Virus record (IMG/VR): IMGVR_UViG_3300042874_000443
Location: 93,409 to 157,408 of that record
Strand: one strand, 5' to 3'
Source: a virus
Length of the DNA stretch: 64,000 bases
The notes beneath the pieces were generated by a model. That model had not been told where the DNA came from, did no database searches, and saw nothing but the letters and a program-made list of their open reading frames with translations. Of the stretch, positions 6,269-61,067 are shown in pieces (position 1 is the stretch's first letter; the number at the start of each line of letters is the position of its first letter). The position numbers were made by a program, and so were the translations under genes.

Positions 6269-6439
6269 GTGAACTGGGTGGATGACAAAGGCGTCGTTCA
6301 CCACGGTATCGGTATGACACGTATCGAAGGTCATCCGCGCGTGGGAAGAACACGCAAGACACACAAAGTAGTGACGTGCCTATGGTGCGTCCAATCCCCG
6401 TTTCAAAAGCCAAGAAGGATGAGAAGGATAAGAAGATGA
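6269..6439 (+). CDS. small His/Cys protein, outlying member of the TCxxC family
   Basis: 56 aa, GTG start 3 nt after the VWA gene. It carries DDKGVVHH (H11, H12) and then VVTCLWC (C37, C40), the same signatures that define the tandem array at 57.6-61.1 kb. The central Cys found in array members is missing; H22 or H32 might replace it. The tail is very basic (RRMRRIRR). Its TGA overlaps the ATG at 6436 as ATGA, which supports both this gene and that start. It is probably a zinc-binding peptide with a nucleic-acid-binding tail; this is inference. Confidence 0.6.
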   Translation: MNWVDDKGVVHHGIGMTRIEGHPRVGRTRKTHKVVTCLWCVQSPFQKPRRMRRIRR

Positions 6440-9714: not shown

Positions 9715-12700
9715 GTGCAATCTGCCGACGCCCCGTTCAACTTTCCCGTCGTACAACCCGTCACTGTTCGCAAGCGTGACGGACGCACCACGCAGCCCTT
9801 CGACGTCGGAAAGATCGAGAGCGCCGTACGCAAGGCATGGGTCGAGGCAGAAGGCTCCGTCGACGAGGAGGCGCTCCACTGTGTAGCAACGTTCGTTTCT
9901 GCGACGCTTCATTCGGACGTCACCGACGTCGAGCAGATCCAAGACGTCGTCGAAGTCGCGCTCATGCGCGCGAACCAGTTCAAGGTCGCCAAGGCGTACA
10001 TCATCTATCGCCAGAAGCGGACCGAGGCGCGCGCTGTCCGTCAGCAACCGGATGCCTCGGCTGTCAGCGACTACATCCACGCCAGCAAGTACGCACGCTA
10101 CGTCCCCGAGATGCAGCGCCGCGAGGTCTACGAAGAGACCGTCGCACGCGAGGAAGGCATGCACCTGCGTCGCTTCGCACACATCCCGGAGCTACTTCCT
10201 CTCATCACACGTGCGCACGATCTGGTGCGTGAGAAGAAGGTTCTGCCGTCGATGCGTTCGATGCAGTTCGGCGGTACGGCCATCGAAGCCAACCACAACC
10301 GCATCTACAATTGCTCGGCGACACTGATCGACCGCCCTCGTGCGTTCGCCGAAGCGATGTTCCTGCTCCTGTCAGGCTGCGGTGTCGGATACTCCGTGCA
10401 GATCGAGCACGTCGAGAAGCTGCCCGCGCTCGTCGACGTCGATGAGAAGAAGGTCGTCCACCACGTCATCGACGACACCATCGAAGGTTGGGCGAACGCG
10501 CTCGACGCGCTCATCAACAGCTACATCGGCGGCTACTACGTCGAGTTCGCGTTCAACAAGATCCGAGGGGCGGGTGCTCCGCTCAAGACGTCAGGTGGGC
10601 GTGCACCAGGTCACCAGAAGCTGAAGCTCGCGCTCGAACGTGTCCGCAAGGTCCTGCACAGCGCGCAAGGACGCCAGCTACGCCCCATCGAATGCCACCG
10701 CATCCTGTGCCATGCGGCGGACGCGGTGCTCTCGGGGGGCATCCGTCGCAGCGCGATGATCTGCTTGTTCTCGATCGAGGACAGCGAGTTGATGCACATC
10801 AAGGCGGATCGCGACTGGTACGACAAGGAGCCGTGGCTCGCCAACGCCAACAACTCCGTCGTGCTCAAGCGTGACGAGGTGAAGGAGAAGCACTTCAAAC
10901 GCATCTTCGGGATGACGAAGAACTTCGGCGAGCCCGGCGTCTTGTTTGTCAGCGACTACAATCACGTCACCAACCCCTGCGTGCCGCCCGGCACGCGCAT
11001 CCTCACGCGTGAGGGGTACGTCGCCATCGAGACCTGCGTTAACCGGCCGACCGTCGTTTGGAATGGTCTCGAGTGGCGTACCGTCACACCGCACGTCACC
11101 GGACATGACCAACCCATCGTTCGTGTGCACCTGTCCGACGGGACGTCACTGGACTGCACCGACTACCACGAGTGGTGTGTGGCCGCGGGGAAGTGGTCTC
11201 GAGACCACACCGAGGAACGTGTGCGTGCGATCGATCTCGAAGAGGGCGACACCTTGATGCGTTACGACATGCCCCTCGTCGAAAACGGCGTTGACATGCC
11301 GTACGCTTATTCGCATGGGTTCTGGTGCGCTGACGGAACCGTCGAGGACGCTGGTCGCAAGACCGCAATGTGTTACGGCATCAAACGGGGCCTGATCGCA
11401 CGTATGGAGCACGGCGGCGCGGTGGAACGGATCTCTGACGATACGGAGCGCGGACGCTCGCGTGTGGTCTTCACCTCGAACATGCCAGACAAGTTCGTCG
11501 TGCCCCACAATACGTCGATCCAATCGCGCCTCGACTGGGTCGCGGGGCTCTTGGACGGTGATGGTTCCGTAGTCAAGAATCCGAAAAGCGTCGGATTGCA
11601 GCTCTCTAGCGTGAACGTACCGTTCCTCCGCGAGGTTCGTTTACTGCTCACCACGCTCGGCGTACAGGCGAAGATCGCCGAGATGCATGAAGGCGGGATG
11701 CGCCTCCTCCCAGACGGCCGAGGCGGCAAGGCCGAGTACCTTACACAACCGAGCTTCCGTCTTCTCATCAACGCGACCGACACACACCGTTTGGTGCGTG
11801 CAGGTCTGCGTACAAGCCGCCTCGACCTCTCGGCGGCTGAAACTCTGCCACAACGGGATGCCCGCCGCTTCGTTACTGTTACGGCCGTCGAACGCCTGGC
11901 GCCTGCGCCTGTTGTCTATTGCTTCACGGAAGAGAGTAACCACACCGGGACGTTCGAAGGCATTGTGACGGGGCAGTGCGCGGAGATCGGTCTCGACCCG
12001 CTTCTCGTCCACGAGGACGGCACCACGTCGACGGGCTGGGCGATGTGCAACCTCTGCGAGATCAACGCTGCGAAGCTCACCTCGTTCGAGGATTTTTCGG
12101 AGGCGGCATGGGCGGCGACGCTCATCGGTACGATGCAGGCCACGTACACGGACATGCCGTACCTCGGCAAGGTCACCGAAGCGATCGTCCGTCGTGATGC
12201 TCTTCTCGGTATCGGCATGACAGGCATGCAGGACGCTCCGCACATCGCGTGTCACCCCGACTACCAACGCGTCGTCGCGGGCAAGGTCGTCGACTGGAAC
12301 CGCGAGTACGCGGCGCTTCTTGGCATCAACCAGGCTGCGCGCACCACCTGCGTAAAGCCGTCAGGCACGACGTCACTCGAGCTGGGCAACGTCGGCTCTG
12401 GCATTCACCCGCACCACGCCCGTCGCTACATCCGCCGTGTCACCGCCGACGAGCTGGAGGTCGTGTTCCAGGCGTTCAAGACGGCGAACCCGCACATGTG
12501 CGTGAAGAAGCCGGACGGCAAGTGGGTCATCGAGTTCCCTGTCGAGGCGCCCGAAGGTGCGGTCCTCAAGGAGGACCTGACTGCCGAGCAGTTCATGGAG
12601 ATGGTGCGTTCGACCCAGCAGAACTGGGTAGTGCCCGGCGCGACCCGTCCCAGCCATGCGCCCGGCCTCTCTCACAACGTGTCGAACACGATCACGGTCC

Positions 12701-12969
12701 GTTCAACGGAATGGGCCGAGGTTGCCGACTACCTCTGGAAGCACCGCGACAACTTCACAGGCGTTTCGCTTCTTTCGGACACTGGAGACATGGTCTACGC
12801 GTTCGCGCCGTTCGAAGCGGTCAAGACGGAAGCGCAGGAGCGTCGCTGGAACGAGTTGATCGTGGGCTACACGCCCATCGATTACCTCTCGGTCTTCGAG
12901 GCCGAAGACGGCACGAACCTGACGGGCGAAGCAGCATGCGCCAACGGCGCGTGCGAGTGGCGCCCGTAA
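9715..12969 (+). CDS. nrdJ: class II (B12-dependent) ribonucleotide reductase with intein
   Basis: 1084-aa precursor, GTG start with AAGGAG upstream. It begins with an ATP-cone-like region (VRKRDGRTTQPFDVGKIESAV). The reductase core has YNCSAT (C200, first redox Cys), SGCGVGYSVQ, SGGIRRSA, NP/CAEI split by the intein (thiyl-radical Cys = C755), AMCNLC (C778, likely redox partner) and CVKPSGTTS. The C-terminus CANGAC provides the shuttle Cys pair. The core resembles adenosylcobalamin-dependent NrdJ/RTPR enzymes, which reduce ribonucleotides to deoxyribonucleotides without a separate radical subunit; no NrdB gene is present. After splicing the enzyme would be 751 aa. It supplies dNTPs together with ThyX and dNMP kinase at 38-42 kb. 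Confidence 0.9.
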   Translation: MQSADAPFNFPVVQPVTVRKRDGRTTQPFDVGKIESAVRKAWVEAEGSVDEEALHCVATFVSATLHSDVTDVEQIQDVVEVALMRANQFKVAKAYIIYRQKRTEARAVRQQPDASAVSDYIHASKYARYVPEMQRREVYEETVAREEGMHLRRFAHIPELLPLITRAHDLVREKKVLPSMRSMQFGGTAIEANHNRIYNCSATLIDRPRAFAEAMFLLLSGCGVGYSVQIEHVEKLPALVDVDEKKVVHHVIDDTIEGWANALDALINSYIGGYYVEFAFNKIRGAGAPLKTSGGRAPGHQKLKLALERVRKVLHSAQGRQLRPIECHRILCHAADAVLSGGIRRSAMICLFSIEDSELMHIKADRDWYDKEPWLANANNSVVLKRDEVKEKHFKRIFGMTKNFGEPGVLFVSDYNHVTNPCVPPGTRILTREGYVAIETCVNRPTVVWNGLEWRTVTPHVTGHDQPIVRVHLSDGTSLDCTDYHEWCVAAGKWSRDHTEERVRAIDLEEGDTLMRYDMPLVENGVDMPYAYSHGFWCADGTVEDAGRKTAMCYGIKRGLIARMEHGGAVERISDDTERGRSRVVFTSNMPDKFVVPHNTSIQSRLDWVAGLLDGDGSVVKNPKSVGLQLSSVNVPFLREVRLLLTTLGVQAKIAEMHEGGMRLLPDGRGGKAEYLTQPSFRLLINATDTHRLVRAGLRTSRLDLSAAETLPQRDARRFVTVTAVERLAPAPVVYCFTEESNHTGTFEGIVTGQCAEIGLDPLLVHEDGTTSTGWAMCNLCEINAAKLTSFEDFSEAAWAATLIGTMQATYTDMPYLGKVTEAIVRRDALLGIGMTGMQDAPHIACHPDYQRVVAGKVVDWNREYAALLGINQAARTTCVKPSGTTSLELGNVGSGIHPHHARRYIRRVTADELEVVFQAFKTANPHMCVKKPDGKWVIEFPVEAPEGAVLKEDLTAEQFMEMVRSTQQNWVVPGATRPSHAPGLSHNVSNTITVRSTEWAEVADYLWKHRDNFTGVSLLSDTGDMVYAFAPFEAVKTEAQERRWNELIVGYTPIDYLSVFEAEDGTNLTGEAACANGACEWRP
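10978..11976 (+). mobile_element. intein with LAGLIDADG homing endonuclease in RNR
   Basis: Residues 422-754 of the RNR precursor (333 aa). It starts with Cys (CVPPGTRILT), has a block B-like CTDYHEW (T-x-x-H) and ends VTGQ directly before Cys755. Two LAGLIDADG-type motifs are visible: HGFWCADG around 534 and VAGLLDGDGSV around 609. The insertion separates NP from CAEI, so the +1 extein residue is the catalytic thiyl Cys. The C-terminal residue is Gln instead of Asn and the penultimate His is Gly. Gln-ending inteins are known, so splicing remains plausible. Confidence 0.88.
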
Positions 12970-48227: not shown

Positions 48228-48683
48228 ATGGCCACGACAACAAAACCACGGTTCCGCAAGACGCGAGACAGTGTGGTCACAGGGGACCTCGAGCCGCCCT
48301 ACGACGTGTTGCTCGCCTTCCACAAGTTCGATGACGGCCTCATTCATTCGTGTGGATGGATCAAGGGCGCGTCGTCATACATCACATGCTGTCGCATCAA
48401 CTTTGGTCCGACGCTTGTTGTCTACGACGGTCCATCGTGCCTGAAGTGTGCAATCTATCGCGGATGTCCCGCGTGTGTATTGGGATACATCCACGAAGAA
48501 ACCGTACGTCTCGGGAAGTGGGAGACCAAGGACGGTCGTCGACTCTACGTGTTCGAGATGGACGACCAACATCTCCGAAACTCAATCGCCAAGCTGACGC
48601 GTGATGAAGACACGTTCAAGAAAGACTGGAAAGAATGGCTGGTCGTTCTGCACGTCGAAGCAAAGCTACGGGGGTTCGAATGA
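48228..48683 (+). CDS. extended TCxxC-family protein
   Basis: 151 aa. The N-terminal half carries the family pattern: FDDGLIH (H40), ITCC (C54/C55) and SCLKC (C71, C74), with an extra Cys pair C80/C83. The C-terminal half is a different, charged helical region (DEDTFKKDWKEWLVVLHVEA). It is therefore a scattered member of the array family at 57.6-61.1 kb with an added domain. It begins 2 nt after the HNH gene and its stop overlaps the next ATG. Confidence 0.5.
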   Translation: MATTTKPRFRKTRDSVVTGDLEPPYDVLLAFHKFDDGLIHSCGWIKGASSYITCCRINFGPTLVVYDGPSCLKCAIYRGCPACVLGYIHEETVRLGKWETKDGRRLYVFEMDDQHLRNSIAKLTRDEDTFKKDWKEWLVVLHVEAKLRGFE

Positions 48684-51709: not shown

Positions 51710-52189
51710 GTGGAGGTCGTACCGGCGTGTCCGGTGCCCTGCAAGTACTGCCCGTGGCGTCTCGCCAACCAGGGCTCAAAACCGGACCATAACAAGTTCT
51801 ACACTCCTGCGAACTTGGCTCGGTTATGGAAGGGCTTGCGCAGCGGCGCCCGCATGAGCTGCCATCCGACCGACCCGCGGATGGCCTCGTTCGAGGGCTA
51901 CGAAGCGCTCGCCGATCGCGAGGTCACCAACGAATGCACAGGCGCGCTCGTCATCGTGCAGCGCGAGTTCATGGTGTTCCAGAACATCTGTCAGGCGGAT
52001 CCGAAGAGCAAGACGTCGCTGCAGCAGTACCGCAAGCAACGTCCCAACGGCATGACGCGCGACGGCCTCATCGCCATCGTCGAGCGCTCGATATTCGGCG
52101 GCTCCTCGCTCAACCCGATCGCGATGTCGCGTCCGAACCTCGGCGACGAGGAGATCGGCTACTCCGCGATCGATCGTCCGCCGCGATGA
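51710..52189 (+). CDS. DUF6283-like Cys-rich protein (copy 1)
   Basis: 159 aa, GTG start. CPVPCKYCPWRLANQG, SCHPTDP and ECTGALV form the pattern C-x-x-C-P-(W/F)-R ... C-H-x-T ... C-x-G-A-L-V. The same pattern is found at 54130-54624, so the two genes are paralogues. This layout matches a family of phage proteins known as DUF6283, thought to bind a metal. The ATGA overlap places it before the TCxxC-family gene at 52186. Confidence 0.6.
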   Translation: MEVVPACPVPCKYCPWRLANQGSKPDHNKFYTPANLARLWKGLRSGARMSCHPTDPRMASFEGYEALADREVTNECTGALVIVQREFMVFQNICQADPKSKTSLQQYRKQRPNGMTRDGLIAIVERSIFGGSSLNPIAMSRPNLGDEEIGYSAIDRPPR

Positions 52190-52404
52190 ACGTCCGCCGT
52201 TGGGACAACGTCGTTCACGTCATCTTGTGCGAGAACCCCGAACACCCGCAAGTTGACAGTCAAGGCCGTCGTGTGGCAAACGCATACGTCGTAACAACGA
52301 CGTGTATGCGTCACGCCAAAATCAACGACTACGGTCGCAACAAACTCACCGAAGATGCGCCAACGTGCATTGTGTGCGTGGCGGGAGGTTATTCTGATGA
52401 ATAA
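52186..52404 (+). CDS. TCxxC-family small protein, scattered member
   Basis: 72 aa, ATGA-coupled. WDNVVH (H11), C15 or C40, and APTCIVC (C61, C64) fit the His ... Cys ... T-C-x-x-C pattern of the array at 57.6-61.1 kb, including the Val-Val-His segment. It is isolated between a DUF6283-like gene and an unrelated small gene. Likely a zinc-binding peptide. Confidence 0.6.
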   Translation: MNVRRWDNVVHVILCENPEHPQVDSQGRRVANAYVVTTTCMRHAKINDYGRNKLTEDAPTCIVCVAGGYSDE

Positions 52405-55265: not shown

Positions 55266-55730
55266 ATGATCGCGCTATCGTCCAAACGAACGTGTAAGAC
55301 CTGTGAACGAAAATTCCGTCCACAGGTTCACGGATACAACGCCCGTTACTGCACGACGAAGTGCAAGGCAAAGGCACGGTGGCATCGTTTTCCGAAGGCC
55401 AAACGAAAGCAGTTACGTCGCACGCAATGGCTGAGCACAAAGAGTGACGCCAAACGAATGGCGAAACATCGTGCTAATAGCGCTAAGAGTGTTCGTGCAG
55501 TGCGCGAATGGCTCGCAGCGTACAAGCTGAAACTTGGCTGCGTGGACTGCGGCTACAACACTAACGCCGCTGCTCTTCAGTTCGATCATGAAGGGCCGAA
55601 GCTCGCTGCTATCTCGGAACTGCGGTCTAGCAAAGAACGCATCCTTGCTGAAATCAAACGTGGCAAGTGCAAGGTCCGCTGCGCAAACTGCCACGCGGTT
55701 AAAACGTGGGAACGCAAGCAACCAAAGTAA
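55266..55730 (+). CDS. HNH endonuclease
   Basis: 154 aa. CKTCERKF and CTTKCKAKARWHRF form an N-terminal zinc finger, then GCVDCGYNTNAAALQFDHE, split here as GCVDCGYN then LQFDHEGPK, and CANCHAVKTWER form the C-x-x-C ... D-H ... C-x-x-C-H HNH fold. Strongly basic between the two parts. AT-rich codons compared with neighbours suggest a mobile homing endonuclease. Confidence 0.8.
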   Translation: MIALSSKRTCKTCERKFRPQVHGYNARYCTTKCKAKARWHRFPKAKRKQLRRTQWLSTKSDAKRMAKHRANSAKSVRAVREWLAAYKLKLGCVDCGYNTNAAALQFDHEGPKLAAISELRSSKERILAEIKRGKCKVRCANCHAVKTWERKQPK

Positions 55731-55959: not shown

Positions 55960-56730
55960 ATGCTCACGTTGAAAGACGTCGTGGGGCGTGACGGTGTCTG
56001 CTGGCGTTTCATCGACGCCGATGCACCAGACACGCGTCCGACAGTGAACAGCTTCACGGAACCACATTGCCCGGCGTATGCCAGCGGTACGTGGGACTGG
56101 TGGGACCTCCACGAGAAGCTTGGTGAGTTCTATCGGAAACACCAAGACAAGCGCGTCGAACTGCTCGAGTCCCTCTACAAGCGGCCGACGCCAACCCTGT
56201 TGAAAGGAACTGTCGAAATGTACAAGGCCGTCCCGACCAAGGATGTACGTGCAGGGCAGTGGTACCTCGGCACCTACAACTCGTTGAACTACGCGAACAA
56301 GATTGCGGAGCACCTCAACGACAAAACAGCGAAGCCCAACGAGTACCGCCGTGACTTCGGCCCCATCACGGACATCGGCTTCGCTGTCGTGCGTGTCGAA
56401 GTGCCAACGTGCACGGCATTGGCAGGTGTTGTCGTTCGCTCCTGTGTCGACCCGCTCGACAAGCTGATGAAGCAGCGCGTCGACGGAATGTCGGGCGTGA
56501 TGTGTTTCATGAACTACGAGGGCGCGCAGCGTACCGAGTCGCTCGTGCGCACTCAGCACGGGTTCGTTAGCACGAACGCAGAGTACCCGCTCAACGAGGG
56601 CCAGTGTGCACTCGCGCGAGAGATGTGGCCGCACGCGCTGCGGATTCGCTTCCAGGTCGCGGCGGAGAAGGAGCGGTACCGCGTCGTCTGCGATAACGTC
56701 GACGAGATGCCGAACATGGTGGATGGCTAA
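55960..56730 (+). CDS. hypothetical protein
   Basis: 256 aa. The N-terminal 90 residues look globular with several Trp (GTWDWWDLHEKLG). The middle (VRAGQWYLGTYNSLNYANKIAEHL) and C-terminal region (GFVSTNAEYPLNEGQ) have no recognised catalytic motif. It is one of the longer non-repetitive genes of this region. The stop overlaps the next ATG by 8 nt. Confidence 0.5.
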   Translation: MLTLKDVVGRDGVCWRFIDADAPDTRPTVNSFTEPHCPAYASGTWDWWDLHEKLGEFYRKHQDKRVELLESLYKRPTPTLLKGTVEMYKAVPTKDVRAGQWYLGTYNSLNYANKIAEHLNDKTAKPNEYRRDFGPITDIGFAVVRVEVPTCTALAGVVVRSCVDPLDKLMKQRVDGMSGVMCFMNYEGAQRTESLVRTQHGFVSTNAEYPLNEGQCALAREMWPHALRIRFQVAAEKERYRVVCDNVDEMPNMVDG

Positions 56731-57423: not shown

Positions 57424-57586
57424 ACCCAAGCAGGAGTACGTTCACGTCATCGACAAGAAGACGCGCAAGTCCATCGAGGCCATCGGTCCATCGGCGGACG
57501 CGGAGCGTGTAGCTCGCGGCGTGTCCATCAACCTCAACCACGAAGACTACGAGCTGGCGATCAGCCCAAAGAAGACGTGGCCATGA
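57416..57586 (+). CDS. small protein before the TCxxC array
   Basis: 56 aa, overlapping the previous gene by 8 nt and the next by 4 (ATGA). YVHVIDKKTRKSIEAIG then a helical part (DAERVARGVSINLNHEDYEL) resembles other small phage regulators of beta-beta-helix type. It has no Cys and is not an array member. Confidence 0.45.
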   Translation: MAKPKQEYVHVIDKKTRKSIEAIGPSADAERVARGVSINLNHEDYELAISPKKTWP

Positions 57587-57819
57587 CGTTGCGTGAAGTC
57601 CTCGCCCGTTCGAAGACGCCGCCCAAGGTCGGTGACCATGAGATCGTCGTGGGCCCCGACGGAATGGCGCACATCCTCGTCATCTCGCACGTCGACTTCG
57701 AGAACCCCGTCGAAACGCACATGAACTGGGACTGCCCGTGCCGTGCGATCAAGACGGGCAACCCGATGGACTTCGAAGTCGCGCCGTCCATCACATGTCT
57801 GCAATGCATGCTTTTGTGA
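57583..57819 (+). CDS. TCxxC array protein 1
   Basis: 78 aa. DGMAH (H30), CPC (C51 or C53) and ITCLQC (C72, C75) define the array pattern. The first 22 residues are an N-terminal extension not shared by others. Start at the ATG 57583 (ATGA overlap). It would bind a single zinc through His and three Cys if the pattern is a zinc site. Confidence 0.65.
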   Translation: MTLREVLARSKTPPKVGDHEIVVGPDGMAHILVISHVDFENPVETHMNWDCPCRAIKTGNPMDFEVAPSITCLQCMLL

Positions 57820-58244
57820 TCTGCGGCTGGTGTGGTTCGAAGGACACGGACGCGGAGTTCGTCGACAACGGTGTCGGGATGCAGCAAGTGTCGGCGGCGA
57901 CCTGCGGGAACTGCGGTGCGACGCAGGTCGGTCCCTACGACGAGGGTGAGATCGACCCCGAAGATAAGAAGCGCGGCTGGCACGCCGGGCACGAATCCTC
58001 AAACATCGCTGCGCGTGCAACACGCTTCGACGGCCCGTCTATCTACGCCAGCGACTTCGTCAACGGCGAGACGATGCTCATCCAGTACCAAGGCACCGTG
58101 CACCAAGCGTTCAAGCGCCTGTCGTTCTCGGCGCCGACGTTTCAGATGTTGTGCGGGCTCGAGGTCGAAGTTGCTGATCGCCCGCCTGTCGACGCTATCA
58201 CCTGTTTCGAATGCATCGCCTACGACGCGAAAGGAAGACCATGA
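57816..58244 (+). CDS. TCxxC array protein 2 with N-terminal zinc ribbon
   Basis: 142 aa; the GTG at 57816 fits the GTGA overlap pattern of the array. The N-terminal ribbon has C3, C6, C30 and C33 (CGWCG, CGNCG). The C-terminal part is a typical module: YQGTVH (H96), MLCG (C113), ITCFEC (C130, C133). The family module is thus fused to a second ribbon, evidence that it behaves as a mobile domain. Confidence 0.65.
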   Translation: MICGWCGSKDTDAEFVDNGVGMQQVSAATCGNCGATQVGPYDEGEIDPEDKKRGWHAGHESSNIAARATRFDGPSIYASDFVNGETMLIQYQGTVHQAFKRLSFSAPTFQMLCGLEVEVADRPPVDAITCFECIAYDAKGRP

Positions 58245-58633
58245 AGATCGACTTGGCACTCCTCCGCAAGGAGGTGACGGTCACTCTCGAGCGCGAAGAA
58301 GAGGACTCGGCCTACACTGACGGCCACTTCCAACGCGAGGACGGCTCGAACAACGACGAGCTGTGCGCCTGGATTCGCGACGAGCTGCGCTCGGGCAACT
58401 ACTGGGCGTGGTGCGTCGCCCACGTGACCGTCATGTACGACGACCTCAAGGCCGAAGAGTGGCTCGGCGGCTGTTCCTACGAGTCCGAAGCGGACTTCAA
58501 GAAGGGCGGCTACTACGAGAGCATGATCGACGAAGCGCTTCGGTCTCTCGCCAAGGACCTCGAGTCGATGGCTAACGCCCACATCTGGGAACACGACCCC
58601 GTGACGTGCTTCAAGTGCGTGGTAGCAGCGTAG
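58241..58633 (+). CDS. protein with TCxxC-type C-terminus
   Basis: 130 aa, ATGA-coupled. Most of the protein (RDELRSGNYWAWCVAHVTV, EWLGGCSYES, ESMIDEALRSL) resembles a small phage protein family of unknown function. Only the last residues, HDPVTCFKC (C123, C126), match the array signature, and H114 or H118 is close. Either a short module has been grafted onto another protein, or the match is chance. Confidence 0.5.
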   Translation: MKIDLALLRKEVTVTLEREEEDSAYTDGHFQREDGSNNDELCAWIRDELRSGNYWAWCVAHVTVMYDDLKAEEWLGGCSYESEADFKKGGYYESMIDEALRSLAKDLESMANAHIWEHDPVTCFKCVVAA

Positions 58634-58830
58634 AGACGTGGACCGACGACGCGGGGTTGACCCACATCCTTCGGACCAAGAACATCCGTTGGTCCCGCTG
58701 CCTTCGGGAAGTTCCCCGCGCGCAGTCCGTCGACTGGATCGATCGCCCCGCACGCGTCCCAACATGCCTTGCCTGCATCGGCCGACAGGATGGGAAGCTT
58801 CCCTATGGCGAACGAACGAAAGTTCCATGA
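58615..58830 (+). CDS. TCxxC array protein 3
   Basis: 71 aa from the GTG at 58615 (58606 also possible), overlapping the previous gene by 19 nt. DDAGLTH (H17), SRC (C29) and PTCLAC (C51, C54). The loop between C29 and the last pair is Arg/Asp-rich (REVPRAQSVDWIDR). Tail basic. Confidence 0.6.
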   Translation: MRGSSVETWTDDAGLTHILRTKNIRWSRCLREVPRAQSVDWIDRPARVPTCLACIGRQDGKLPYGERTKVP

Positions 58831-59005
58831 CACCCCGCAACTGCTGCGCGACAGGGCAGGCGTCGTCCATGAGAGCGCCGGCACCTACAACATCAACTCG
58901 CTGGCGGTGTGTGAGCTGGGTACGTCCGACTTCAACCTCGGCGAAGGGATCGAGCAAGTCTACGACCTGCCCGTTACGTGCCTGCGCTGCGTCGGGGCAC
59001 GATGA
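58805..59005 (+). CDS. TCxxC array protein 4
   Basis: 66 aa, 26-nt overlap with the previous gene. DRAGVVH (H22), AVC (C36) and VTCLRC (C59, C62). The middle loop is acidic (GTSDFNLGEGIE), unlike that of protein 3. ATGA overlap with the next gene. Confidence 0.65.
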   Translation: MANERKFHDTPQLLRDRAGVVHESAGTYNINSLAVCELGTSDFNLGEGIEQVYDLPVTCLRCVGAR

Positions 59006-59193
59006 CGCTGCTTCGTGACGCGAACGGCTTCGTCCACGGGACCCGCAGCCACGGCATGACTATCCTTCTCTGCGAAGAGAAGGACGGTCACCGTGACTAC
59101 GGAACCCTGATCCACGCGGACGAGGATCCGACCATCGAGTGCATCACGTGCTTGCAGTGTCTCGCGGCGCCGGAACCGACGCGTCGCCGGTAG
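59002..59193 (+). CDS. TCxxC array protein 5
   Basis: 63 aa. DANGFVH (H12), LLC (C24) and ITCLQC (C50, C53), with a His/Asp-rich loop (EKDGHRDYGTLIHADED). Ends basic (PTRRR). Its end overlaps the opposite-strand reading frame at 59144. Confidence 0.65.
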   Translation: MTLLRDANGFVHGTRSHGMTILLCEEKDGHRDYGTLIHADEDPTIECITCLQCLAAPEPTRRR

Positions 59194-59389
59194 CCGTCGT
59201 CTGGACGAACACCATCGTGCCGATCAGCTCGACCAGCCACTGCTCTGCATCGCTGCCACGCCCCGTTGCAGCGCAAAGCGCCGCCATCCACGCGAGCGCC
59301 TTCGGGCACTGCTTGGTCGAGAACATGGAGTAGAGACACGTCCACATGGCGGCTTCTTCGGAGGCACGATTATCGGGTAAACGTCGCAT
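59144..59389 (-). CDS. possible minus-strand gene interrupting the array
   Basis: 81 aa from the ATG at 59389, or 67 aa from 59347. The codons have G or C at most third positions and the product looks natural (CPKALAWMAALCAATG, QWLVELIGTMVFVQ). The plus strand between 59194 and 59387 has no array-type gene. No Shine-Dalgarno or family was recognised. Starts are back to back with 59388 on the plus strand, suggesting a shared regulatory point. Confidence 0.4.
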   Translation of the reverse strand: MRRLPDNRASEEAAMWTCLYSMFSTKQCPKALAWMAALCAATGRGSDAEQWLVELIGTMVFVQTTATGDASVPAPRDTAST

Positions 59390-59609
59390 GAAAGGGGACA
59401 ACAACATCGTGCGTCAAGAATCGTTCCCCGTCAACTGTCTGTTGGTTTGGTCGGACAAACATTCGGGTGGGGGCTTACGGCATTGCACGACGAATCATCG
59501 TCAAAACGAGACGCCGTGCGGTCTTTGGACCAAGCGACTGTTCTACCAAGGCCCCTACGGCTGTCGCGAAGAAGCGACGATCACCTGTCTCCGGTGCACG
59601 CTTGCGTAA
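59388..59609 (+). CDS. TCxxC array protein 6
   Basis: 73 aa. SGGGLRH (H32), TPCG (C44) and ITCLRC (C67, C70), with extra C17, C33 and C59. The D-x-x-G segment is replaced by DKHSGGG. First array gene after the minus-strand interruption, so it may have its own promoter (GGTAAACG lies 8 nt before the start). Confidence 0.6.
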   Translation: MKGDNNIVRQESFPVNCLLVWSDKHSGGGLRHCTTNHRQNETPCGLWTKRLFYQGPYGCREEATITCLRCTLA

Positions 59610-59799
59610 GCGAAAAGACCGGTCATTCGCGCGTTACTATGAAGGTAACGATGGCCTCCGACATGTCGTTCACAAGAACAGCATCTGGGCTGCGTGCGGG
59701 CAATCCATCCTCGACGTCAAGATCTGGGGCGGTAGCAAGATGGTGACGTGTCTATTGTGTTTGGGTGACGCGGACAAACGTCGTTGGGGGACTTCGTGA
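59602..59799 (+). CDS. TCxxC array protein 7
   Basis: 65 aa from the TTG at 59602, which overlaps the previous stop by 8 nt; no ATG or GTG is available. EGNDGLRH (H21), AACG (C32) and VTCLLC (C50, C53). N-terminus strongly basic (RKRKDRSFARYY). GTGA overlap with the next gene. Confidence 0.6.
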   Translation: MRKRKDRSFARYYEGNDGLRHVVHKNSIWAACGQSILDVKIWGGSKMVTCLLCLGDADKRRWGTS

Positions 59800-59996
59800 G
59801 TCCGGACATTCGTCTCTTCACCGACAACACCGGCGTCACGCACTGGCGCTACATCATGACGGGCATCCTGTTCGTTTGCGGCAAGGAGCAAACGTACAAA
59901 AGTTCGTTCGAGCCCGAACACCCCGGCTACCCAACCTGCGTGGCGTGCATCGCCATGGTGGACCGGGATCAACACTTCGTGCCTTCGAGGTACTGA
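59796..59996 (+). CDS. TCxxC array protein 8
   Basis: 66 aa, GTG start in a GTGA overlap. DNTGVTH (H16), FVCG (C28) and PTCVAC (C48, C51). Aromatic-rich between H16 and C28 (WRYIMTGILF), so the zinc site would sit on a hydrophobic core. Confidence 0.65.
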   Translation: MSPDIRLFTDNTGVTHWRYIMTGILFVCGKEQTYKSSFEPEHPGYPTCVACIAMVDRDQHFVPSRY

Positions 59997-59997
59997 C

Positions 59998-60210
59998 ATG
60001 ACGATCAAGCTCAAGGACAACCTCGTGCACGCGACCCAAGAACACGAGAGCAAGGACCGCTACGGCAAGACCGTATGTCAGGTCTCGTACACCACTGACC
60101 CTGTCCACGTGCGGGTCATCAACAACAACGTCTACGAAGACACCGCCGTTGCAAAAACGGCGAAGCCTCCGCTCACGTGTCTGTTGTGCATCGCGAGGAG
60201 TACGGCATGA
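59998..60210 (+). CDS. TCxxC array protein 9
   Basis: 70 aa. KDNLVH (H11), TVC (C27) and LTCLLC (C61, C64). The loop before the last Cys pair is the longest among the single-module members (33 residues between C27 and C61), with an Asn/Val strand (VRVINNNVYED). Confidence 0.65.
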   Translation: MTIKLKDNLVHATQEHESKDRYGKTVCQVSYTTDPVHVRVINNNVYEDTAVAKTAKPPLTCLLCIARSTA

Positions 60211-60749
60211 AAACAACCTACAAAGTCAAACGTGGGCACGTTTGGCACGTCGTGCACGAGACCAAGACAGGGCAGGCGCGTGTCAGTGCCTATACCTTGT
60301 GCGGGTCGAACTACGAGCACGGCGAACGCAGCACACGCCAGCCGACGTGCCCCAACTGCTGCAAGCTCGACAACCCCCTGACCCTCACGAGCGAAGAGCG
60401 CGTGATCCTGAAGGACGCCGCGCGCATCAACCGTTGGCAGGACGCTCCCCGGCACTCACGTGCGTTTCAGCGTTTGGTCCAGGTCGACTACATCACCCCA
60501 GACGCGCAGCTGACCCGTCGAGGCCTCATCCTGATGGAGGACTACGACCTCGGCCCCGTCCCGCTCGCGGACCTTAGTGGCCTCGTTCACTCACGCGTCG
60601 CGCTCGGCGGGACCCAGGCGTGTGACCACATGCGCCACCTCGCCGACGCGGACAAGATGACCACCGAACGCTACGCCAAGCTCCGGAAGATCAGTGATCA
60701 GGTCATGGTAACGTGCATCCAGTGCATCGCACATGAAGACCTACGCTGA
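60207..60749 (+). CDS. two-module TCxxC protein with central helical domain
   Basis: 180 aa. Module 1: HVWHVVH (H14/H17), LCG (C32), PTCPNCC (C48, C51). Module 2: LSGLVH (H128), ACD (C139), VTCIQC (C170, C173). Between them, residues 57-115 (LTSEERVILKDAARI ... YITPDAQLTRRGLILME) resemble a winged helix-turn-helix. The layout suggests a DNA-binding centre flanked by two zinc modules. ATGA overlap with the previous gene. Confidence 0.65.
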   Translation: MKTTYKVKRGHVWHVVHETKTGQARVSAYTLCGSNYEHGERSTRQPTCPNCCKLDNPLTLTSEERVILKDAARINRWQDAPRHSRAFQRLVQVDYITPDAQLTRRGLILMEDYDLGPVPLADLSGLVHSRVALGGTQACDHMRHLADADKMTTERYAKLRKISDQVMVTCIQCIAHEDLR

Positions 60750-60897
60750 CTCCAAAGGCGTCGTCCACGTGTTGACGCGGCAGTACCCGGACTGGACGTG
60801 CTGCAACCAACGCATCAACGGTGTCGTCGAACAGAACTCGAGCAAGTTCCCGACGTGCCTCTGGTGTGTTATCAGCCGACTGTGGAAACCCTGGTGA
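60733..60897 (+). CDS. TCxxC array protein 10
   Basis: 54 aa, short but with the complete pattern: DSKGVVH (H12), TCC (C23/C24), PTCLWC (C42, C45). It overlaps the previous gene by 17 nt and the next by GTGA. This compact version shows the minimal module of the family. Confidence 0.65.
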   Translation: MKTYADSKGVVHVLTRQYPDWTCCNQRINGVVEQNSSKFPTCLWCVISRLWKPW

Positions 60898-61067
60898 CCT
60901 GCACGGACGACGAAGGCGTCGTCCATTACGCGATACACCACGGAACCTGGTGCGGCTGGTCGCGCACGTGGGTCGGCGGTGAGTGGTTGATCGACAAGCA
61001 ACCCAAGATGGTGACGTGCATCGAATGCATCGTGCAGCAAAGCCGCAATGACCCGCCGCGCCCGTAG
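60894..61067 (+). CDS. TCxxC array protein 11
   Basis: 57 aa, GTG start in a GTGA overlap. DDEGVVH (H11), TWCG (C20), VTCIEC (C42, C45), Trp-rich loop (WSRTWVGGEW). Last member of the array, overlapped by the next gene by 20 nt. Confidence 0.65.
   Translation: MTCTDDEGVVHYAIHHGTWCGWSRTWVGGEWLIDKQPKMVTCIECIVQQSRNDPPRP

Follow-up and report, generated by a model that had tools for sequence, protein, structure and literature searches.

The closest described relatives of the genes reported here are found in actinobacteriophages. In phiC31, repressor c (phrog_19947) carries at its N-terminus a module in which a histidine and a middle cysteine precede a terminal TCxxC (E 0.0015 in a search of phiC31), and a second search of this phage gave gp54, a stand-alone protein of 57 aa with the module DGKTH...ECG...PPTCTPC. 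The same domain starts the Rowa immunity repressor as well as larger proteins of Xkcd426 and AbbeyMikolon (all three Streptomyces phages), and it is located near the N-terminus of gp136 of the Gordonia phage Neville. The window analysed here, a stretch of 64,000 nucleotides corresponding to positions 93409-157408 of the IMG/VR record IMGVR_UViG_3300042874_000443 (157,408 bases from an uncultivated phage, hereafter G000), contains an array of such modules. At window positions 57583-61067, 13 tightly packed genes of the + strand are found, 12 of which bear the module, twice in one case; the resulting 13 copies follow the pattern (D-x-x-G-V/L-x)-H-x(n)-C-x(n)-(V/P/I)-T-C-x-x-C. A first-pass annotation of the window had described this shared H-C-C-C module, which is present in every module-bearing gene of the array, and had mentioned relatives in actinobacteriophages and plasmids; the former are those listed above, and the plasmid matches were rejected as chance, none being convincing in the searches made. 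The D-x-x-G that it placed before the histidine is a tendency, with D in ~68% of the modules.

In phiC31 gp54 and in the repressor N-terminus, the H, the middle C(G) and the (P/V)TCxxC follow each other in the same order as in the array and at spacings within the array range, so that H-x(n)-C-x(n)-TCxxC is contained in one domain of ~50 aa. When 45 modules were compared by hhalign with five repressor-type actinophage sequences, the four ligands were aligned with a probability of 93.7 (E 1.8e-7), whereas a control against the gene interrupting the array (gene 3, see below) aligned the CxxC tail alone, at 75%. The differences concern number and context: one or two copies per phage were found there as against dozens in rows in the array phages, and the repressor version is fused to a large regulator; overall identity is about 17-24%. 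The module itself has no name and is related to known proteins to which no function is assigned, and what is new, within these searches, is its presence in arrays of ~30-73 copies in one phage lineage. No account of such arrays or of a phiC31 zinc module was found in the open-access literature.

No family reached the gathering score in a Pfam scan of 24 modules, and a PHROG scan of the same modules gave nothing at E<=1e-3 (best 0.017). The best Pfam hit was DUF3039 (PF11238), a family of actinobacterial small proteins whose C-terminal part matches the first module of the gene at 60207-60749; membership was rejected as only one of the 24 modules matched (E 0.005), the best score in the record being 15.2 bits for a cut-off of 22.7. 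The actinophage leads TDanisky and Katyusha, obtained by BLAST, are chance matches in which the module is absent, and Salmonella phage Arash, Vibrio phage D181 and Myxococcus phage Mx1 yielded no match.

The array frames are translated. A six-frame scan of the whole record for H...C...TCxxC in open frames gave 37 matches on the + strand and none on the - strand, and in all genomes compared, residue-shuffled frames gave one match versus 278 in the real frames. An out-of-sample profile was built as a hidden Markov model (HMM) from 147 modules, all taken from other phages. Of the 13 array modules, it detects 12 (10 at E<1e-3), and also most others in the record; the weaker matches are the modules at 60222 (E 0.0023) and 59439 (E 0.019), and that of the gene at 57583 is missed. 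Codon scores prefer the annotated frame throughout the array except at 58615-58830, with a near tie at 59388-59609. A DNA-level cause of the conserved TCxxC was ruled out, Thr being encoded by all four codons and Cys by both; synonymous codons are used freely at the motif positions, so conservation acts at the protein level. Codon and substitution statistics both support translation, which the first-pass annotation had named as one of two points on which its proposal could fail. The genes of the array are as follows, "HMM" referring to the out-of-sample profile.

57583..57819, + strand: array gene 1, 78 aa, single long-loop module H-x20-C-x20-TCLQC with the longest first loop; not recovered by the HMM; ligand-complete orthologues in G007 and G013, and best codon frame.
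57816..58244, + strand: array gene 2, 142 aa, four-Cys zinc ribbon N-terminal to one module (HMM E=4e-5); orthologues in G007 and G013.
58241..58633, + strand: gene 3, interrupting the array, 130 aa, unrelated body with a tail H-x-W-E-H-D-x3-C-F-x-C.
58615..58830, + strand: array gene 4, 71 aa, one module (HMM E=5e-8); start codon uncertain (58606 or 58615), codon score ambiguous, no orthologue found among related phages.
58805..59005, + strand: array gene 5, 66 aa, one module; supported by codon score, orthologues and HMM.
59002..59193, + strand: array gene 6, 63 aa, one module; supported by codon score, orthologues and HMM.
59388..59609, + strand: array gene 7, 73 aa, one module (HMM E=0.019); the least certain member, with a weak codon score and no orthologue found among related phages.
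59602..59799, + strand: array gene 8, 65 aa, one module (HMM E=6e-8); has orthologues; the TTG start is a guess.
59796..59996, + strand: array gene 9, 66 aa, one module (HMM E=5e-11); 65% identity to orthologues.
59998..60210, + strand: array gene 10, 70 aa, one module; supported by orthologues and HMM.
60207..60749, + strand: array gene 11, 180 aa, module, helical winged-helix-like linker, module; every ligand conserved in orthologues.
60733..60897, + strand: array gene 12, 54 aa, one module; supported by orthologues and HMM; the member modelled with AlphaFold2.
60882..61067, + strand: array gene 13, 61 aa, one module; supported by orthologues and HMM; the GTG start at 60882 matches the G007 orthologue.

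The ribbon of array gene 2 (phrog_6115, E=3.5e-12), of the phrog_6115/Lar-like type, is a fusion partner and not a module; a Lar identity (PF14354) was rejected for this gene (E 0.15, 12.7 bits versus 28.6). The tail of gene 3 is kept in an orthologue but lacks a middle Cys, and it is not a standard module.

The 12 genes and 13 modules stand much as first annotated, except that they are not strictly consecutive, the row being broken by gene 3 (58241-58633) and by a module-free gap of 194 bp (59194-59387). Similarly, linkage by ATGA/GTGA overlaps of 4 nt, which had been taken as nearly general, occurs at five junctions (57816, 58241, 59002, 59796 and 60207), the remaining ones being overlaps of ~8-28 nt and, for one gene pair, a spacing of 1 nt. 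Neither a sigma-70-like promoter nor a + strand terminator-like site was found within the array, which fits one long transcript, although the phage may use promoters of its own. An open reading frame (ORF) of the - strand (59144-59407, 87 aa) spans the gap and is possibly a decayed or inserted gene.

The array is real but is only part of a larger set. About 30 modules are present in the whole record (27 at a 20-bit limit), on the + strand without exception. A second array of about 14-16 modules lies at the other end of the record (1.6-7.9 kb), and single modules are found at record positions 92.8, 99.7, 141.7 and 145.6 kb. Judging from synteny with the related phage G013, G000 seems to lack ~25 kb between its ends, a stretch that holds ~16 modules in G013; the complete phage may therefore carry ~45 modules. 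Three further members occur in the window outside the array.

6269..6439, + strand: isolated variant member, middle Cys replaced by a conserved His-rich stretch (GHPRxGRTRKTH).
48273..48683, + strand: probable variant member, 136 aa; HMM E=0.004; orthologue G013_g26383.
52186..52404, + strand: isolated member, 72 aa, upstream of the array; HMM E=9e-6; orthologue in G013.

The variant without the middle Cys is kept in three phages (window 6269-6439; L011:20253-20390; G007:64149), with relatives in G003 and G007, and its ligand set may differ.

Arrays are also found in related phages. The RNA polymerase beta homologue of the record (1453 aa) served as bait and led to 26 related IMG/VR loci, and a profile made from this record alone found many modules in these polymerase-related phages. 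After iteration, 40 modules were counted in G007 (IMGVR_UViG_3300027850_000002, 175 kb), 45 in G013 (3300035180_002714, 158 kb), 73 in G009 (3300042090_002485, 188 kb) and 10 in G002, an 87-kb fragment (33, 41, 64 and 9, respectively, at 20 bits). In each carrier, the modules are confined to one strand, and they represent roughly 13-23% of the called genes. Array-like clusters, which the first-pass annotation had suggested seeking with an HMM, are thus present in other phages, albeit in few independent carriers, since G008/G009 and G012/G013 are near-identical pairs. More distant polymerase relatives (40-51% identity; G010, G014-G017) have no modules. A DNA-level search of isolate phages gave no match, and scans of species genomes with the RNA polymerase and with the ribonucleotide reductase gave no relative, so that neither a host nor cellular copies can be deduced. 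Matches to tail-sheath and head-protease proteins indicate a myovirus of a poorly known lineage.

The genes of the array are old, separately maintained and fast-diverging. Reciprocal best hits were obtained for 20 of the 29 module genes of G000 in G007 and for 19 of 29 in G013, with conserved order. Module orthologues have a median identity of 55%, lower than in other short genes (70-71%) and in long ones (75-77%). Within a genome, paralogues hardly align (a single pair at E<1e-3 in G000), whereas orthologues keep the four ligands together with loop features of their own, e.g., FGSDE(I/V)Q or TVDDVN. The conserved order, ligands and loop features point to old genes that are maintained separately; these genes change faster than their neighbours. 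The expansion under selection that had been proposed has to be modified, as it was neither a recent burst nor one under positive selection. The orthologues diverge faster than other genes, but under purifying selection: pooled ratios of nonsynonymous to synonymous substitutions (dN/dS) are 0.25-0.27 for modules (~0.26) and 0.20-0.23 for other short genes, the synonymous term being near saturation. Nothing in these comparisons pointed to a recent burst of duplication, to shuffling of cassettes or to positive selection overall, and the near-identical phage pairs differ by few substitutions, too few for a test of recent selection.

On the second point, the lack of a common fold, the first-pass proposal is not contradicted either: for one member, a compact fold is predicted at moderate confidence. 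The AlphaFold2 model of array gene 12, which used 45 family sequences, has a mean predicted local distance difference test score of 79 and a predicted template modelling score of 0.63, and consists of four short strands and a C-terminal helix. In this compact model, His12 lies in the second strand, Cys24 adjoins the third, and Cys42 and Cys45 are at the helix start, making H-C-C-C a plausible, unproven single zinc site. No solved structure of the Protein Data Bank (PDB) matched by sequence or fold, and the BFVD viral predictions gave no significant match. The model of the 60207-60749 protein is of low confidence except for the linker, and its fold search was uninformative; this linker (60387-60545), better predicted than the rest, has a winged-helix look in the model. 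With median isoelectric points of 5.9-6.7 (versus 6.7-8.8 for other small proteins of the same phages), the module proteins range from near neutral to slightly acidic; their net charge is near zero, and they are enriched in aromatic residues compared with these small proteins. Near-neutral charge and aromatic enrichment favour protein partners over nucleic acid.

The reading tentatively preferred, with a likelihood somewhat short of even, is that the modules are zinc-stabilised binding mini-proteins that serve early in infection, with a different partner for each set of loops. Each unit would be a single module of ~50 residues, with the His and the central Cys on strands and a turn and with T-C-x-x-C opening the C-terminal helix. 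One zinc is most likely held by the four ligands, which would let a very short chain fold, and the loops between these ligands would form the binding face, with one partner per paralogue. Once bound, the mini-proteins would redirect or block host proteins of metabolism, transcription or defence early in infection. As loops differ between paralogues and are kept within orthologues, each gene probably has its own partner and job. Genes resembling MazG, cupin and repressor genes lie in the array region too, along with many short genes without known role; together with charge, aromatic content and the one-gene-one-loop conservation, this accessory neighbourhood favours protein partners and an early role. 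Several points weigh against this proposal. The zinc, the early expression, the protein targets and the host-directed action are all inferred, the timing solely from the gene neighbourhood. Moreover, two fusions, one with the winged-helix-like linker of 60207-60749 and one with the phiC31 repressor, tie the module to DNA-binding proteins, with which a regulatory role fits equally well, and no match to a known anti-defence family was found in Pfam or PHROGs (PADLOC was not scanned). A broader view, put forward more guardedly still, is that the module is a general-purpose scaffold to which this lineage of large phages gives over roughly an eighth to a quarter of its genes, with ~30-73 separately evolved loop sets per genome, each capturing a different host or phage partner.

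The rival that survives best is rather unlikely and makes the modules regulatory zinc domains, each binding DNA, RNA or a part of the polymerase to tune promoters of a phage multi-subunit RNA polymerase. Modules form the N-terminal part of both the phiC31 repressor and the Rowa immunity repressor, they flank the winged-helix-like linker in 60207-60749, and every array carrier was found through its own RNA polymerase beta subunit; however, the distant phages with a related polymerase are devoid of modules, the isoelectric points and near-zero charge are unlike those of small nucleic-acid binders, and short forms of the phiC31 repressor without the N-terminus still bind operators. A role in counter-defence only, with the members forming a library of inhibitors directed at one host immune system each, is doubtful. 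An operon of tiny, fast-diverging accessory proteins whose copy number and presence vary by lineage would suit it, whereas inhibitor sets are usually patchy and, here, the order and identity of most members are kept between phages with long genes only ~75% identical; moreover, no defence-related match was found in the families scanned. A role as minor proteins of the virion, or as internal head proteins that enter with the DNA, is very improbable: the sole argument is by analogy, some large phages carrying early-acting proteins in the head, and the modules are encoded on the strand opposite to the structural cluster, which includes the genes for tail sheath and head protease, and at a distance from it. 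The idea of exchangeable cassettes that recombination or gene conversion would shuffle, as in a surface-variation system, is strongly disfavoured and hardly credible: a tandem scaffold with different loops recalls such systems, but paralogue loops have almost no similarity, orthologues hold their positions and near-identical phages differ by few substitutions. Finally, dozens of single-site zinc candidates per genome could suggest zinc buffering or sequestration for the phage, or zinc starvation of the host, an explanation as remote as the previous one as loop conservation in each orthologue is needless for buffering and the middle Cys is missing from one variant that is itself conserved.

Other features of the phage deserve mention. 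The 1453-aa RNA polymerase beta homologue that served as bait, which shares 35% identity with its counterpart in Salmonella phage Arash, is encoded outside the window, on the - strand at G000:70614-74975. The ribonucleotide reductase gene (window 9715-12969, 1084 aa) contains an intein-like insert of ~315 aa (CVPPGTRILTREG ... GIVTGQ) at NHVTNP^CAEIGL; the G007 and G009 orthologues are without insert, and none of the G013 proteins was recognised as a homologue. Upstream of the array, an HNH-like endonuclease ORF was recognised by eye from its translation (window 55290-55730), and window 55960-56730 encodes a 256-aa protein without family match, conserved in G007 and G013.

Stand-alone module proteins are unnamed in phage annotation, and one domain now links dozens of them per genome. 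This link extends to phiC31, a phage of a genetically tractable host, which opens a direct route to a function. Should the scaffold view, with its many loop sets on the mini-proteins favoured above, be true, the arrays would offer a library, made by nature, of small binders that are held by metal and directed at bacterial targets. Such a set of loops can be compared with antibody-like or knottin-like scaffold repertoires, although here the repertoire is fixed in the genome. The host-takeover clusters of SPO1 and T4 are likewise runs of short, closely packed genes, thought to act early on the host. However, whereas these clusters encode mostly unrelated proteins, the array phages repeat one scaffold ~30-73 times.

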